Source of the DNA: Catonella massiliensis
GTDB taxonomy: Bacteria; Bacillota; Clostridia; Lachnospirales; Lachnospiraceae
Direction of reading: 5' to 3'
Assembly (NCBI RefSeq): GCF_016651435.1
Contig: NZ_JAEPRJ010000001.1
Location: 992,001 to 1,056,000, forward strand
DNA length: 64,000 bases
Shown in pieces: positions 24,509 to 30,333 of this stretch. A program made the translations under genes and the position numbers. Position 1 is the first letter of the stretch. Each line of letters starts with the position of its first letter. The notes beneath the pieces were generated by a model that saw nothing but the letters and a program-made list of their open reading frames with translations, had not been told where the DNA came from and ran no database searches.

Positions 24509-25436
24509 GCCTTTTAAGCTCTTGTTCTGCCTTTTTTGCCTCTCGCTTGCACTTACAGGCTGTGGCAGCAGTGCAAATGACAATATTAAAGAAGCAGAAA
24601 ACTCATATAAGATATACTATGTCAGCAGTTCAGAAGACAAACTGGTATCAGAGGACTATGTGGCAAAGGAAGAAGAGACTAATAAGTTAATAGGCGAACT
24701 TTTAAAGCAGCTTAACAATGTCCCTGATGGAACTGCTCTTAAAAAACCGATACCGGATTCGGTAGACTTAAAGAGCAAAAGCCTTAAAGACGGCGTCCTT
24801 ACGCTTGATTTCTCAGAAAGCTATCACCAGCTTACAGGGATATCCGAGATACTAAGGCGTGCATCTGTAGTAAAGACTCTTTGCCAGATAAAGGAAGTCA
24901 AAAAGGTAGAGTACAGGGTAGAAAATCAGCCCCTTATGTACTCCGAGTTAAATCCTGTAGGCGCGATGTCTGCTGATGACTTTATAGACAATACAGGTGG
25001 TGAGACCACTTACTACCAGACAGTCCAGATAAGCCTTTATTATACCAATGCTGATGGAAAGAAGCTTTACCAGACCAGACACAACGTAGAATTTGACGGA
25101 ACTATCTCATTAGAAGAGCTTGTCATAAGACAGCTTATGGCAGGACCACTTGATAATGATAAGCTTGCACCTGTTATGCCACCCGGAACCAAGTTAAACA
25201 AGGTGACATTTAAGGATGGTATCTGCTACGTGGACTTTAGCAAGGAATTTCTTGAGGGCAGGGAAGGAGTATCTGATGAGGTCATAGTATATTCTGTAGT
25301 CAATTCACTCTCTGAAATAAGCTCTGTGACAAAGGTTCAGTTCTTTATAGATGGCAAGCCTGTCAGCTCTTATAGAGAGACCATCCCTATTGATTTACCT
25401 GTTGAAAGGAAGTTAGATATTATTGCTGAGAATTAA
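24480..25436 (+). CDS. GerMN-domain lipoprotein
   Basis: 318 residues. Signal peptide with lipobox LALTGC near residue 27, so probably membrane-anchored outside. Two repeated GerMN-type domains follow: one with VDLKSKSLKDGVLTLDFSES, the second with KLNKVTFKDGICYVDFSKEF. In Firmicutes such lipoproteins are often linked to a sensor kinase (compare LpqB/YycH-type partners). It overlaps the histidine kinase by 29 bp and starts at GTG 24480 or 24483. Likely a sensor partner or cell-wall factor of the adjacent two-component system; inferred. Confidence 0.82.
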   Translation: MVDLDLPDCKPFKLLFCLFCLSLALTGCGSSANDNIKEAENSYKIYYVSSSEDKLVSEDYVAKEEETNKLIGELLKQLNNVPDGTALKKPIPDSVDLKSKSLKDGVLTLDFSESYHQLTGISEILRRASVVKTLCQIKEVKKVEYRVENQPLMYSELNPVGAMSADDFIDNTGGETTYYQTVQISLYYTNADGKKLYQTRHNVEFDGTISLEELVIRQLMAGPLDNDKLAPVMPPGTKLNKVTFKDGICYVDFSKEFLEGREGVSDEVIVYSVVNSLSEISSVTKVQFFIDGKPVSSYRETIPIDLPVERKLDIIAEN

Positions 25437-27822
25437 AAGACCGCTTGTAGCTGCGGTACTATTTGTTATACTCCTGATAATGGCTTATGACAGCCTAAGT
25501 AAAGACGAGGGTTTTGCCTATATTGGCAAGACCCTAAGCCTGACCGGAAGGATAAAGGAGATAAAAAGCTACGATGTGCCCTTTGGTGAGCGAAGCTACA
25601 GGCTGAAGGTAAAAGCCGATTCTGATGAGATAAGCGCCTTCATCCTTAAAATAAAAGAAAGTGACCTGTTTGCGGGCTGTAACCTTTATAATGACGTGGA
25701 TATAGATTTATCCGAGCTTTCTAGGATTCTATATGGCAGGGAAATAAGCTGCACCGGAAGCTTTGAAGCTTTTGACGGAGAGCTAAACCCCGGACAGTTT
25801 GACGCTAACGCCTACTATAAAAATGAAGGCTATACCGGTATTCTGGATGCAAAAGATATAAGGATTGTGAAAGAAGAGGGGAGCTTTTCTCCTGATATAT
25901 ATCTACATAGATTAAATCTGGCAATTTCTGACAAATATAAGAAGATTCTTGGTGATAAAAATGCAGGAAGCCTTTCGGCTATGGTTTTAGGTGACAAAAG
26001 AGGTCTGGACGAAGAAATAAAAGAACTATATCAGGAAAATTCAATAAGCCATCTGCTTTCAATCTCAGGTCTGCATATTTCTCTATTAGGTGGTGCTGTT
26101 TTTCTCTTTCTAAGAAGGTTAAAGATCAGCTTTAGCTTCCCACTCATTGCATCAAGCATTATTTTGATTATATATGGAGCATTTACCGGGTTTTCAGTAT
26201 CTACCTCAAGAGCTATTGTTATGATGAGCGTACTGTTTATTTCTTTCGTCATAGGGAAAAGCTATGACTTGCCCAGTGGGCTTGCTCTTGCAGCTCTCAT
26301 ACTTATTGTAATGAATCATAGAGTCATATATCAAAGTGGTTTTTTACTTTCGTTCTTTGCGGTTATAGGAATATTCTATATAATGCCTGAATTGTTGTAT
26401 ATTTTTAAGGTCGATATCTACCATAAAAGAGGGATAATAAAAGGACTACACCTCCTTCTTGCCTCCATCATATCTTCCATAAGCATCCTGCTAGCTACAC
26501 TCCCCATCGTACTAAATAACTTTTATGAGGTTTCACTTACAGGAATCCTCCTAAACATTATAGTCATTCCTCTTATGTCGCTGGTTGTTATCACAGGGCT
26601 TTTAGGAGGCTTTGTGGCACTTGTATCTGAGATTTTGGGAAGCTTCATCCTTGGCATCACACATTATATCTTAAACTTATACACCCTCTTTTGCAGGCTG
26701 GGTGATAGGCTTACCTTCCTTAGACTAATCATAGGAAAGCCTGATAAATGGCAGATAGTACTTTACTACCTGATACTTGTGATAGTATTTTACCTTCTAG
26801 CACTAAAGCGAAGGGAAAATAAGCTTCGGTCACTAAAGAACAATCTGCCTGAAGGATATAATACATCCAAAAGAATAGTATTTACAGCGCTTATGACCTT
26901 TACCTCCTTTTTAATTATTGCATATAAACCAAGAGAATTCTCCATCAATATGCTTGATATAGGACAGGGTGACTGCTTTGTAGTAAATGATGGCAATAAC
27001 GATATTTACATATCGGACTGTGGTAGTACAACAGTACAAAACGTAGGTAAAACAAGGCTTTTACCCTTCTTAAAGTCGAAAGGCTGGGGGAAGGTAGATA
27101 CGATTTTTATCTCACACATGGATAAAGATCATGTAAATGGGGTAAATGATTTGCTTAAATGTGCCGAAATAACTATTGGTAGAATAATTATCTCCGCAAG
27201 CTACACATCAGATAAGCTTAACTGTGCAGAGCTTGAAGAGCTAAAGGAGCTGGCTAAAATGCGTGATATTAAGCTCTTTTACATGAAAAAAGGAGATGAA
27301 ATTGTAGGTAAAGATATTAGCTTTAGATGTATCTATCCGACAGGAGAAGAAGACATTAAAGATCAGAACGAAGCCTCCATTGTGATGAGGATGGATTATA
27401 AGGGATTGTCGATGCTCTTTACAGGAGATATAGCAGGCTCTACAGAGGAAAAGATAATTGACAGCACTGGAAAAGACATCCTTGACTGTGATATCTTGAA
27501 GGTTTGCCATCACGGAAGCAAGAATTCTTCCACAGATGACTTCCTAAAGAAAGTCAGTCCAAAGCTTTATCTTATAAGCTGTGGCCTTATGAACCGTTAT
27601 GGACATCCTCATAGAGATGCTCTATCCAGGATGACAGGAGAAGGCGGCAGGATACTAAGAACCGACCATATGGGAGGAACACAGATAAAGCTTGCGGATG
27701 GAAAGCTTATCATAACCAAGGCAGGAAAGAACCTTACAGGCAAACGCTTTTCTCCGGCAGTCGAATGTGACTGTGAAGACTGCGAAAGGATAAAAGTAAA
27801 TACTCACCTTGTTAAACCATAA
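25423..27822 (+). CDS. comEC: DNA uptake channel ComEC/Rec2
   Basis: 799 residues with all three expected parts: an N-terminal DUF4131-like segment, a polytopic competence domain (SHLLSISGLHISLLGG, typical of ComEC), and a C-terminal metallo-beta-lactamase domain (LDIGQGDCFVV, ISHMDKDHVNG, KVCHHGSKNSS). ComEC transports single-stranded DNA across the membrane. The start is TTG at 25423 with GAAAGGAAG upstream, inside the end of the lipoprotein gene. With ComEA and the type IV pilus it supports natural transformation. Confidence 0.93.
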   Translation: MLRIKRPLVAAVLFVILLIMAYDSLSKDEGFAYIGKTLSLTGRIKEIKSYDVPFGERSYRLKVKADSDEISAFILKIKESDLFAGCNLYNDVDIDLSELSRILYGREISCTGSFEAFDGELNPGQFDANAYYKNEGYTGILDAKDIRIVKEEGSFSPDIYLHRLNLAISDKYKKILGDKNAGSLSAMVLGDKRGLDEEIKELYQENSISHLLSISGLHISLLGGAVFLFLRRLKISFSFPLIASSIILIIYGAFTGFSVSTSRAIVMMSVLFISFVIGKSYDLPSGLALAALILIVMNHRVIYQSGFLLSFFAVIGIFYIMPELLYIFKVDIYHKRGIIKGLHLLLASIISSISILLATLPIVLNNFYEVSLTGILLNIIVIPLMSLVVITGLLGGFVALVSEILGSFILGITHYILNLYTLFCRLGDRLTFLRLIIGKPDKWQIVLYYLILVIVFYLLALKRRENKLRSLKNNLPEGYNTSKRIVFTALMTFTSFLIIAYKPREFSINMLDIGQGDCFVVNDGNNDIYISDCGSTTVQNVGKTRLLPFLKSKGWGKVDTIFISHMDKDHVNGVNDLLKCAEITIGRIIISASYTSDKLNCAELEELKELAKMRDIKLFYMKKGDEIVGKDISFRCIYPTGEEDIKDQNEASIVMRMDYKGLSMLFTGDIAGSTEEKIIDSTGKDILDCDILKVCHHGSKNSSTDDFLKKVSPKLYLISCGLMNRYGHPHRDALSRMTGEGGRILRTDHMGGTQIKLADGKLIITKAGKNLTGKRFSPAVECDCEDCERIKVNTHLVKP

Positions 27823-27843
27823 GAAAATTTGGATTAATTATCC

Positions 27844-27872
27844 TTGAAAAATCTAATTTTTTCGAGTATAAT
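27844..27872 (+). promoter_or_regulatory. sigma-A promoter of the structured RNA
   Basis: TTGAAA at 27844-27849, 17-bp spacer, TATAAT at 27867-27872. It begins 22 bp after the comEC stop. The expected start of transcription is about 27879-27880. Confidence 0.8.
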
Positions 27873-27879
27873 CAAAGTA

Positions 27880-28088
27880 ACAGGACAAGATGACTTTAGA
27901 TAAGCCTGGAATGTTCGATAATTTCTGATATTTTGAACCTACATGACTTAAAAAGGGATTCCTATATCCATATTTTGATGTCAGGCCTCATTTCGGTGGA
28001 AGGCAGATGAATATGTGCGGTTGCCCACCTAGTAAACGCTAGGAGTCAAAAACAGAAACCGGCATTTTGGGCTTATTTTTTATTTTAA
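27880..28088 (+). ncRNA. Stand-alone structured RNA of about 200 nt, class not identified
   Basis: Seen directly: pairing between 27902-27913 and 28063-28074 (12 pairs including G-T; extendable to about 16), 27922-27927 with 28053-28058, 27931-27936 with 28046-28051, and 27936-27944 with 28013-28022 (AACC/GGTT and ACAT/ATGT). Three local hairpins sit inside: 27945-27982, 27985-28004 and 28028-28043 (CCTAG/CTAGG). The closing stem is followed by a T-rich tract (28075-28086), so it doubles as a terminator. It has its own promoter, and the next gene has another, so it looks like an independent RNA. Candidate classes are the raiA motif or 6S RNA; I cannot confirm either by eye. A leader riboswitch is less likely. 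Confidence 0.7.
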
Positions 28089-28122
28089 AAAGCCAGATTT
28101 TAAAAATAATTTAAAAAAGTAC

Positions 28123-28151
28123 TTGCATTTGGTTTCAAAATGGTATATTAT
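28123..28151 (+). promoter_or_regulatory. sigma-A promoter of the transglutaminase-like gene
   Basis: TTGCAT at 28123-28128, 17-bp spacer, TATTAT at 28146-28151, 43 bp before the ATG at 28194. It lies after the RNA terminator, so the two transcripts can be separate. Confidence 0.7.
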
Positions 28152-28193
28152 ATTACAAACAAATCTTAAAACGTAACCAAAGGAGAAAAACGT

Positions 28194-29009
28194 ATGAACA
28201 GACTTTACAAATACTTGTTTGCGTTAAGCCTGTTGTTACTGGCTTTTCTGGCAAACCCCGATAAGGCACTCGCAGACAGCGCAACTATAGAGAACGCAAA
28301 CGATGGAACAGTTAAACTTGTCTACAACAACGACAATGATGCAAGGGTTAAGCTTCTTGTTCAGCTTACCGGAGGCACTCAGTACAAGTATGACATACCT
28401 AAGGGAAATGTAGACATCAATATCCCTCTTACACAGGGAAATGGTGAGTACAAGCTCATCCTATGTAGAAACATCTCAGGTACCAAATACGCAGTAGTGC
28501 AGACAGTAAGTGTTACCCAGAGACTTTCAAGTGACAATGATGCTTTCCTTTCATCTAACCTCATTATAGACTGGAATACTACCAATGAAGCCATCAAAAA
28601 GGCTCAGGAGTTAGCAAAGAAAGGTGGAAGCAAGAAGATTAAGTACATCTACGACTTTGTAGTTAAGAATTACTCTTATGACTATGACAAAGCCAACAAC
28701 ATCAACGAGATAGCAAAGTACTCACAGTACATTCCAAACATCAAGAAGATATATACAGATAAGAAAGGTATCTGCTACGATTATTCAGTGCTCTTAGCTT
28801 CGATGTTAAGAAGCGTGGGGGTTCCTACAAAGGTAGTTACAGGATATACCGTTAATGCCACAGTATATCACGCTTGGAACAATGTATATGACAACTCCAA
28901 GTGGAACGTAGTAGATGCAACCTACGATGCACAGATGTACAGAGCAAAGAGAAGCTACAGTATGTACAAGAGCTTCAGTGATTATAAGGACATCGTATAT
29001 ACCTACTAA
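28194..29009 (+). CDS. Secreted transglutaminase-like protein
   Basis: 271 residues. Signal peptide (KYLFALSLLLLAFLA...ALA, cleavage near residue 27), a beta-rich N-terminal domain, then a transglutaminase-like core: Cys194 in GICYDYSVLLASMLRS, His226 in VYHAWNNVY, Asp241 in WNVVDATYD. These three residues form the expected catalytic triad. Such secreted enzymes in Clostridia act on cell-surface proteins, as cross-linkers or cysteine proteases; the substrate is unknown. The start has AAAGGAG. A bidirectional terminator follows. Confidence 0.85.
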   Translation: MNRLYKYLFALSLLLLAFLANPDKALADSATIENANDGTVKLVYNNDNDARVKLLVQLTGGTQYKYDIPKGNVDINIPLTQGNGEYKLILCRNISGTKYAVVQTVSVTQRLSSDNDAFLSSNLIIDWNTTNEAIKKAQELAKKGGSKKIKYIYDFVVKNYSYDYDKANNINEIAKYSQYIPNIKKIYTDKKGICYDYSVLLASMLRSVGVPTKVVTGYTVNATVYHAWNNVYDNSKWNVVDATYDAQMYRAKRSYSMYKSFSDYKDIVYTY

Positions 29010-29106: not shown

Positions 29107-30333
29107 CTACTCCAGTACCACCTTGCAGAACTTCTTCTTACCCTTTCTTACTATAAGTCCATCGCCCCTTAGCTCATCAGGAGTGAAGGTGGCGGCAAAG
29201 TCAGTTACCTTGTTGTCATTTACAACCACTCCTCCCTGTTCTACAGCACGTCTGCCCTCTGAGCGGGTAGCCACAAGGCCGGACTTGTGAAGCAGGGTAA
29301 TGATGTCAAATACACCGTCTCTTGCATCCTCCATAGAGATAGCAAAGGAAGGCATATTCTCAAGGCTTCCGCCACCTGCAAACAAGGCCTTCGCAGCAGA
29401 CTGAGCCTTCGCTGCCTCCACTTCTCCGTGCACAAGCTTAGTAAGCTCGTATGCAAGGATTTCCTTCGCTTCGTTTAACTTCGCACCCTCCCAGGACTCC
29501 ATAGCAAGGATATCCTCTATAGGAAGGAAGGTAAGGAGCTTAAGGCACTTAAGTACATCTGTGTCATCTACATTTCTCCAGTACTGGTAGAACTCATAAG
29601 GCGTAGTCTTCTCAGGGTCAAGCCACACAGCACCGCTTGCAGTCTTACCCATCTTCTTGCCCTCAGAATTAAGCAGGAGAGTGATAGTCATAGCGTGTGC
29701 ATCTTTACCAAGCTTTCTTCTTATAAGCTCAGTTCCTGCAAGCATATTGCTCCACTGGTCATCTCCGCCAAACTCCATATTACAGCCGTATTTCTGGTAT
29801 AACATATAGAAATCATAGCCCTGCATAAGCATGTAGTTAAACTCAAGGAAGCTAAGCCCCTTCTCCATACGCTGCTTGTAGCACTCCGCCGCAAGCATCC
29901 TGTTTACTGAGAAATGAGGGCCTATATCCCTAAGGAACTCAATATAGTTAAGGCCTAGGAGCCAGTCAGCGTTATTTACCATGATAGCCTTGCCCTCGCC
30001 AAAGTCTATAAAGCGCTCCATCTGCTTCTTAAAGCACTCACAGTTATGCTCTATGGTCTCCTTAGTCATCATGGTACGCATATCACTCCTGCCGGAAGGG
30101 TCGCCTATCATACCTGTACCGCCACCCATAAGGGCTATAGGCTTATTACCTGCCATCTGGAGGCGCTTCATCAGGCAGAGCGCCATAAAATGTCCCACAT
30201 GAAGGCTGTCGGCAGTAGGGTCAAAGCCTATATAGAACACAGCCTTTCCCTCATTTATCATCTTGCTGATTTCTTCCTCGTTAGTTACCTGGGCTATCAG
30301 CCCCCTTGCCTTAAGTTCCTCGTAAACAGTCAT
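29107..30333 (-). CDS. tyrS: Tyrosyl-tRNA synthetase
   Basis: 408 residues, class I synthetase. The HIGH motif appears as HVGH in [11 protein letters not shown] and the KMSKS motif as KKMGKT. A C-terminal S4 RNA-binding domain is present ([22 protein letters not shown]). It charges tRNA-Tyr. The ATG (complement of 30331-30333) has AGGAGGATAAT upstream. Expression is controlled by the tyrosine T-box leader at 30418-30677. Confidence 0.96.

Follow-up and report, generated by a model that had tools for sequence, protein, structure and literature searches.

The gap between comEC and a transglutaminase-like gene in Catonella massiliensis appears to hold a structured RNA, and the question is whether this RNA belongs to a known kind or represents a new class. 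The region was studied within a stretch of 64,000 nucleotides, hereafter the window, in which comEC (25423-27822, + strand) and the transglutaminase-like ORF (28194-29009, + strand) are separated by 371 nt. Both gene names are taken from a preliminary description of the sequence, which had placed the RNA between these two genes, in agreement with the coordinates. It had also proposed a stand-alone structured RNA gene, which is borne out at approximately 27880-28081 (+ strand) by a promoter, a fold and a match to Rfam family RF00013. This match (6S/SsrS; 27900-28077, + strand; E = 1.8e-13) was obtained in a whole-window Rfam scan, a check that the preliminary description had itself suggested. 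It spans positions 1-187 of the 187 in the model, and its 77.1 bits exceed the gathering score (46.4) by 30.7. We therefore identify the structured RNA beside comEC as the 6S RNA (SsrS) gene of this genome, with a probability of about 0.97, the roles in binding and release being assigned by analogy. The locus is an ordinary copy of an RNA of an already known kind, not a new class.

6S RNA mimics an open promoter and holds RNA polymerase in slow-growing cells. Its presence in Clostridia is established, as excerpts of two studies describe the detection of Clostridium acetobutylicum 6S RNA by Northern blot (PMC3879012) and its listing from Rfam in Clostridium phytofermentans (PMC5171806), so the RNA is known and the locus can be regarded as one ordinary copy. 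At E <= 10, the genome of the window yielded a single 6S match, the locus itself, with no second copy, which differs from the two paralogues reported for Bacillus subtilis in the part of PMC8414754 available. The features expected of a 6S RNA are present, namely the closing stem, central bubble and apical arm, as seen by covariation, and a putative pRNA template on the 5' strand of that bubble, as read from the sequence. Likeness to RF00013 thus extends over the whole length, including the template region, the difference being that part of the Rfam consensus pairing is missing in Lachnospiraceae.

A permissive Rfam scan of 27600-28400 gave seven matches at E <= 10, of which the 6S RNA alone exceeded its own cut-off. 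A new class of stand-alone structured RNAs would account for the stable fold and the own promoter of the locus, but not for the full-length RF00013 match (77.1 bits versus 46.4), on which it was rejected, nor for the 6S pattern of covariation and conservation, and it is extremely unlikely. Since a standard Rfam scan finds a known regulator, a search for a new RNA class is unneeded here. The raiA motif RNA, also put forward in the preliminary description, has only its similar length in its favour. It produced no row at E <= 10 around the locus (27600-28400), and the sole match of RF03072 in the genome lies elsewhere and scores 13.4 bits, far below the cut-off of 101.3; raiA was rejected, and its probability is practically negligible. 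Among the class candidates raised at the outset, 6S RNA is the one that stands.

The position of the RNA also brings to mind a 5' leader that controls the transglutaminase-like gene behind it, or an element of the comEC 3' UTR, as it lies on the same strand as both neighbours and the transglutaminase gene is found downstream, at most 0.3 kb from the 6S start, in three of the five genomes of the genus (L001, L036, L052). However, the neighbours vary across the other loci while the RNA is retained, so the RNA is not tied to one neighbour. ComEC is encoded directly upstream of the 6S RNA in two of the five genomes (L001, L016), and in L050 a ComEC match (35%) ends 1.3 kb upstream. Outside the genus, tblastn with four proteins of the window (E <= 1e-6) gave a single further match (ComEC, 28%, L046), many loci having at most 1.5 kb of flanking sequence. 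This lack of conserved neighbours led us to reject a leader of the downstream gene, and together with the own promoter and the 6S match it makes the leader or 3' UTR explanation very unlikely. The free ncRNA favoured over a leader in the preliminary description agrees with the full-length RF00013 match. On the opposite strand of the window lies an ordinary T-box leader (RF00230, 30436-30678, - strand, 115.5 bits), just upstream of an ORF (29107-30333, - strand) that by eye resembles a tyrosyl-tRNA synthetase; this and the 6S RNA are the two Rfam matches above curated scores in the whole window.

The 6S RNA gene is preceded by a sigma-A-type promoter (Table 1) that the preliminary description had called near-perfect, and none of 100 mononucleotide shuffles of the upstream 100 nt equalled its score. 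The promoter scan listed four promoter-like sites, compared with 1.8 (sd 1.5) in shuffled sequences, the other three matching 9/12 positions. A separate promoter claimed for the following gene at 28123-28151 is absent from that list. When the 100 nt upstream were compared across 60 loci, that of the window among them, the highest-scoring promoter-like site averaged 9.98/12 versus 7.97 in mononucleotide shuffles, and reached at least 10/12 in 45 of the 60; the 15 loci below 10/12 include L050 and L052, of the same genus as the window. The -10 box ends 27 nt upstream of the Rfam start, and for this reason the primary transcript may have a 5' extension of approximately 20 nt beyond that start. 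Transcription from this promoter would give an RNA of roughly 200 nt. The segment 27880-28085 has a folding energy of -52 kcal/mol (z = -2.10), which 1 of 200 shuffled sequences equalled. Taken with the promoter, this stable fold bears out, in outline, the earlier description of a stand-alone structured RNA gene. The terminator was proposed to consist of the closing stem plus a T tract. The T-rich run is present (10 of 15 bases in 28075-28089), and a pattern scan of 27700-28300 listed no short-loop terminator, its loop limit of 8 being unable to see the closing stem. The proposed terminator is plausible.

Table 1. Coordinates of the 6S RNA gene and its elements in the window.
Feature	Position	Strand	Basis or remark
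Sigma-A-type promoter of the 6S RNA gene, TTGAAA-17-TATAAT	27844-27872	+	11/12 consensus positions
6S RNA (SsrS)	27900-28077	+	Full-length RF00013 match
Closing stem, 5' arm	27901-27918	+	Pairs with 28059-28075
Inner stem, 5' arm	27922-27927	+	Pairs with 28053-28058; two-sided changes in 6/6 pairs
P2 5' arm beside the central bubble	27931-27936	+	Pairs with 28046-28051; also predicted by RNAalifold
Putative pRNA template	27931-27942	+	Predicted pRNA 5'-GUAGGUUCAAAA, first base opposite C27942
Candidate central-bubble collapse helix	27944-27949	+	Would pair with 28043-28048 after P2 opening; 6 pairs, -6.9 kcal/mol
Apical arm of 6S RNA	27955-28026	+	Rfam match and covariation
3' central-bubble hairpin	28028-28043	+	Stem 28028-28033/28038-28043
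Closing stem, 3' arm	28059-28075	+	Pairs with 27901-27918
Sequence TTTTTTATTTT after the closing stem	28076-28086	+	With the closing stem, a possible intrinsic terminator

6S matches (E <= 0.001) were widespread, being found in 57 of 61 genomes (the own genome and 60 relatives), 54 of them over the cut-off. Of the 37 genomes of the window's family, four lack a match over the cut-off: two score below it (L055, L056), and the other two, which are 78% and 60% complete, gave no match. Three matches, L055 (G008), L056 (G034) and L057 (G045), scored 29.8-32.2 bits, below the gathering score, in genomes that are 86 to 100% complete, and are possibly divergent 6S RNAs. A genome of the same order carries tandem 6S matches 51 nt apart (L060; G056:C13:340673-340848 and 340900-341075), and two matches on separate contigs were observed in G028 (L014, L059) and in G041 (L002, L058).

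The structure was examined in an alignment of 33 sequences, one 6S RNA with a match over the cut-off per genome of the family Lachnospiraceae, onto which the base pairs of RF00013 were mapped. These represent 33 of the 60 match places, the omitted ones being L055 and L056 (below cut-off), L059 (the second copy of G028) and 24 outside the family. The pair counts and shuffle tests on the 33 sequences ignore relatedness; only the test of the collapse helix described below was repeated on thinned sets. In the 6S structure, 80.5% of cells were paired, compared with 74.5 in shuffles, two-sided changes occurred in 22 of 49 pairs versus 15.0 (0 of 500 shuffles as high, with kinship ignored), and the covariation score was 0.269 versus 0.156. 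None of the 500 shuffles matched the structure on any of five measures, and six slid versions were lower on each. The covariation in homologues by which the preliminary description had proposed to judge the RNA is found among these Lachnospiraceae for the 6S structure. Each of the Rfam pairs at columns 19/194, 39/175, 67/147 and 68/146 is missing from 30 to 32 of the 33 sequences; with several of its pairs not formed in Lachnospiraceae, the Rfam consensus fits imperfectly.

Four long-range helices had been proposed for this RNA, and they fared differently. The first (27902-27913/28063-28074) falls within the covarying closing stem of the 6S RNA, in which 82.1% of cells are paired and 8 of 17 pairs show two-sided changes, though its outer pairs are often broken (14 to 19 of the 33 sequences do not pair at columns 3-5); the innermost pair of this stem, 27918/28059, is A-C in the window. 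The second (27922-27927/28053-28058) covaries, with 84.0% of cells paired and two-sided changes in all six pairs, a count equalled in 30 of 500 shuffles, the covariation score being equalled in 0 of 500. The third (27931-27936/28046-28051) is 98.0% paired and hardly varies, and 37 of 500 shuffles score as high, so it is conserved rather than supported by covariation. The fourth (27936-27944/28013-28022) has a 5' side that overlaps the pRNA template in part; the sequence of the window allows nine standard pairs for it, with one bulged base. In this bulged register, the 33 sequences showed no two-sided change, shuffles were as high in 500 of 500 on four measures and 487 of 500 on the fifth, and two pairs are broken in 25 of 33 sequences. 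The unbulged register was at chance level in the same sequences, and helix 4 was rejected for absence of covariation in either register. One of three local hairpins described earlier, the 3' bubble hairpin (28028-28043), is conserved, with 198 of 198 cells paired and two-sided changes in three of its six pairs. In the apical arm, the helix at columns 74-80/137-144 has two-sided changes in 7/7 pairs, and pairing in the next helix down (columns 59-70/145-155) is as low as 64.1%.

In known 6S RNAs, the pRNA is copied from the 5' side of P2 and the central bubble. The most conserved stretch of 12 nt in the alignment, 27932-27943, lies on this side, with 10 of 12 columns invariant compared with 36 of 178 overall in the 33 sequences. 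For lactic acid bacteria, the available part of one study names as pRNA hallmarks GG at positions 5/6, or 4/5 in other cases, together with AA at 9/10 and an adenine immediately preceding the start (PMC8414754). A start opposite C27942, picked to fit these criteria, places GG at pRNA positions 4/5 and AA at 9/10, with A27943 preceding, and both columns, C27942 and A27943, are invariant in 33 of 33 sequences. By analogy with excerpts of PMC8414754 and PMC12005410, we infer a pRNA start at C27942, its synthesis being a prediction from sequence, and the short product templated by the 6S RNA of the window is predicted to begin 5'-GUAGGUUC. The 12 letters GUAGGUUCAAAA are given by 28 of the 33 sequences and the first 11 by 29, and TGAACCTACA is present in 52 of the 60 match places. 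According to the excerpt of PMC12005410, the 6S-1 RNA of B. subtilis yields the pRNA GUUCGGUCAAAACU, and in Aquifex aeolicus the pRNA starts with GUAGG. The predicted pRNA shares with the former an initial G and UCAAAA at positions 7-12, but has GG at 4/5 instead of 5/6; with the latter it shares the first five letters, GUAGG, which are followed by a C4 stretch in A. aeolicus and by UUCAAAA in the pRNA predicted here.

The likely function of this RNA, by analogy, is the sequestration of sigma-A RNA polymerase, with a release driven by pRNA. Work on E. coli and B. subtilis suggests the steps of binding, pRNA synthesis and release. The RNA would adopt a rod shape whose central bubble makes it look like an open promoter, and would bind the housekeeping RNA polymerase holoenzyme, a binding attributed to the window RNA by analogy, keeping it off promoters during slow growth. 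When nucleotides return, the polymerase would copy the 5' side of the bubble from C27942 into a short pRNA (5'-GUAGGUUCAAAA...), whose synthesis would open P2, so that a collapse helix (27944-27949/28043-28048) could form and the polymerase be released. In B. subtilis 6S-1, as described in an excerpt of PMC8876501, pRNA synthesis opens P2, pairing of the 5' bubble with the P2 3' strand in a collapse helix was proposed to aid release, and the small 3' hairpin is already formed in the free RNA. The RNA of the window shares with 6S-1 this small 3' bubble hairpin and may share the collapse helix; one was also proposed for A. aeolicus in the same excerpt. The 3' bubble hairpin and the last pair of the candidate helix, 27949/28043, would be competing structures.

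Across the 33 sequences, the mean energy of the collapse helix was -3.48 kcal/mol with the native partner versus -2.76 kcal/mol with swapped partners (0 of 5000 swaps as low; 1 of 5000 with a second seed). When the letters of the 5' strands were shuffled, the mean was -1.66 (0 of 300 reached the native value). The advantage of native partners held in sets thinned to as few as 13 sequences. In that set of 13, no two of which share at least 72% identity, 5 of 5000 swaps were as low as native. The helix is weak or absent in L014, L035, L040 and L042 (+0.8 to -0.7 kcal/mol), and in L019, L022, L031 and L043 the own partner is no better than those of others. The swap tests provide support, not proof, for this candidate, and we lean slightly towards the view that the 6S RNAs of Lachnospiraceae release polymerase via a collapse helix that joins the distal part of the 5' bubble to the P2 3' strand and has coevolved under selection, as proposed for B. 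subtilis 6S-1, in some sequences perhaps with a bulged base. A known regulator within reach of a standard Rfam scan accounts for the RNA beside comEC, and the alignment of its family speaks, to a modest degree, for release by a collapse helix in bacteria other than Bacillus.
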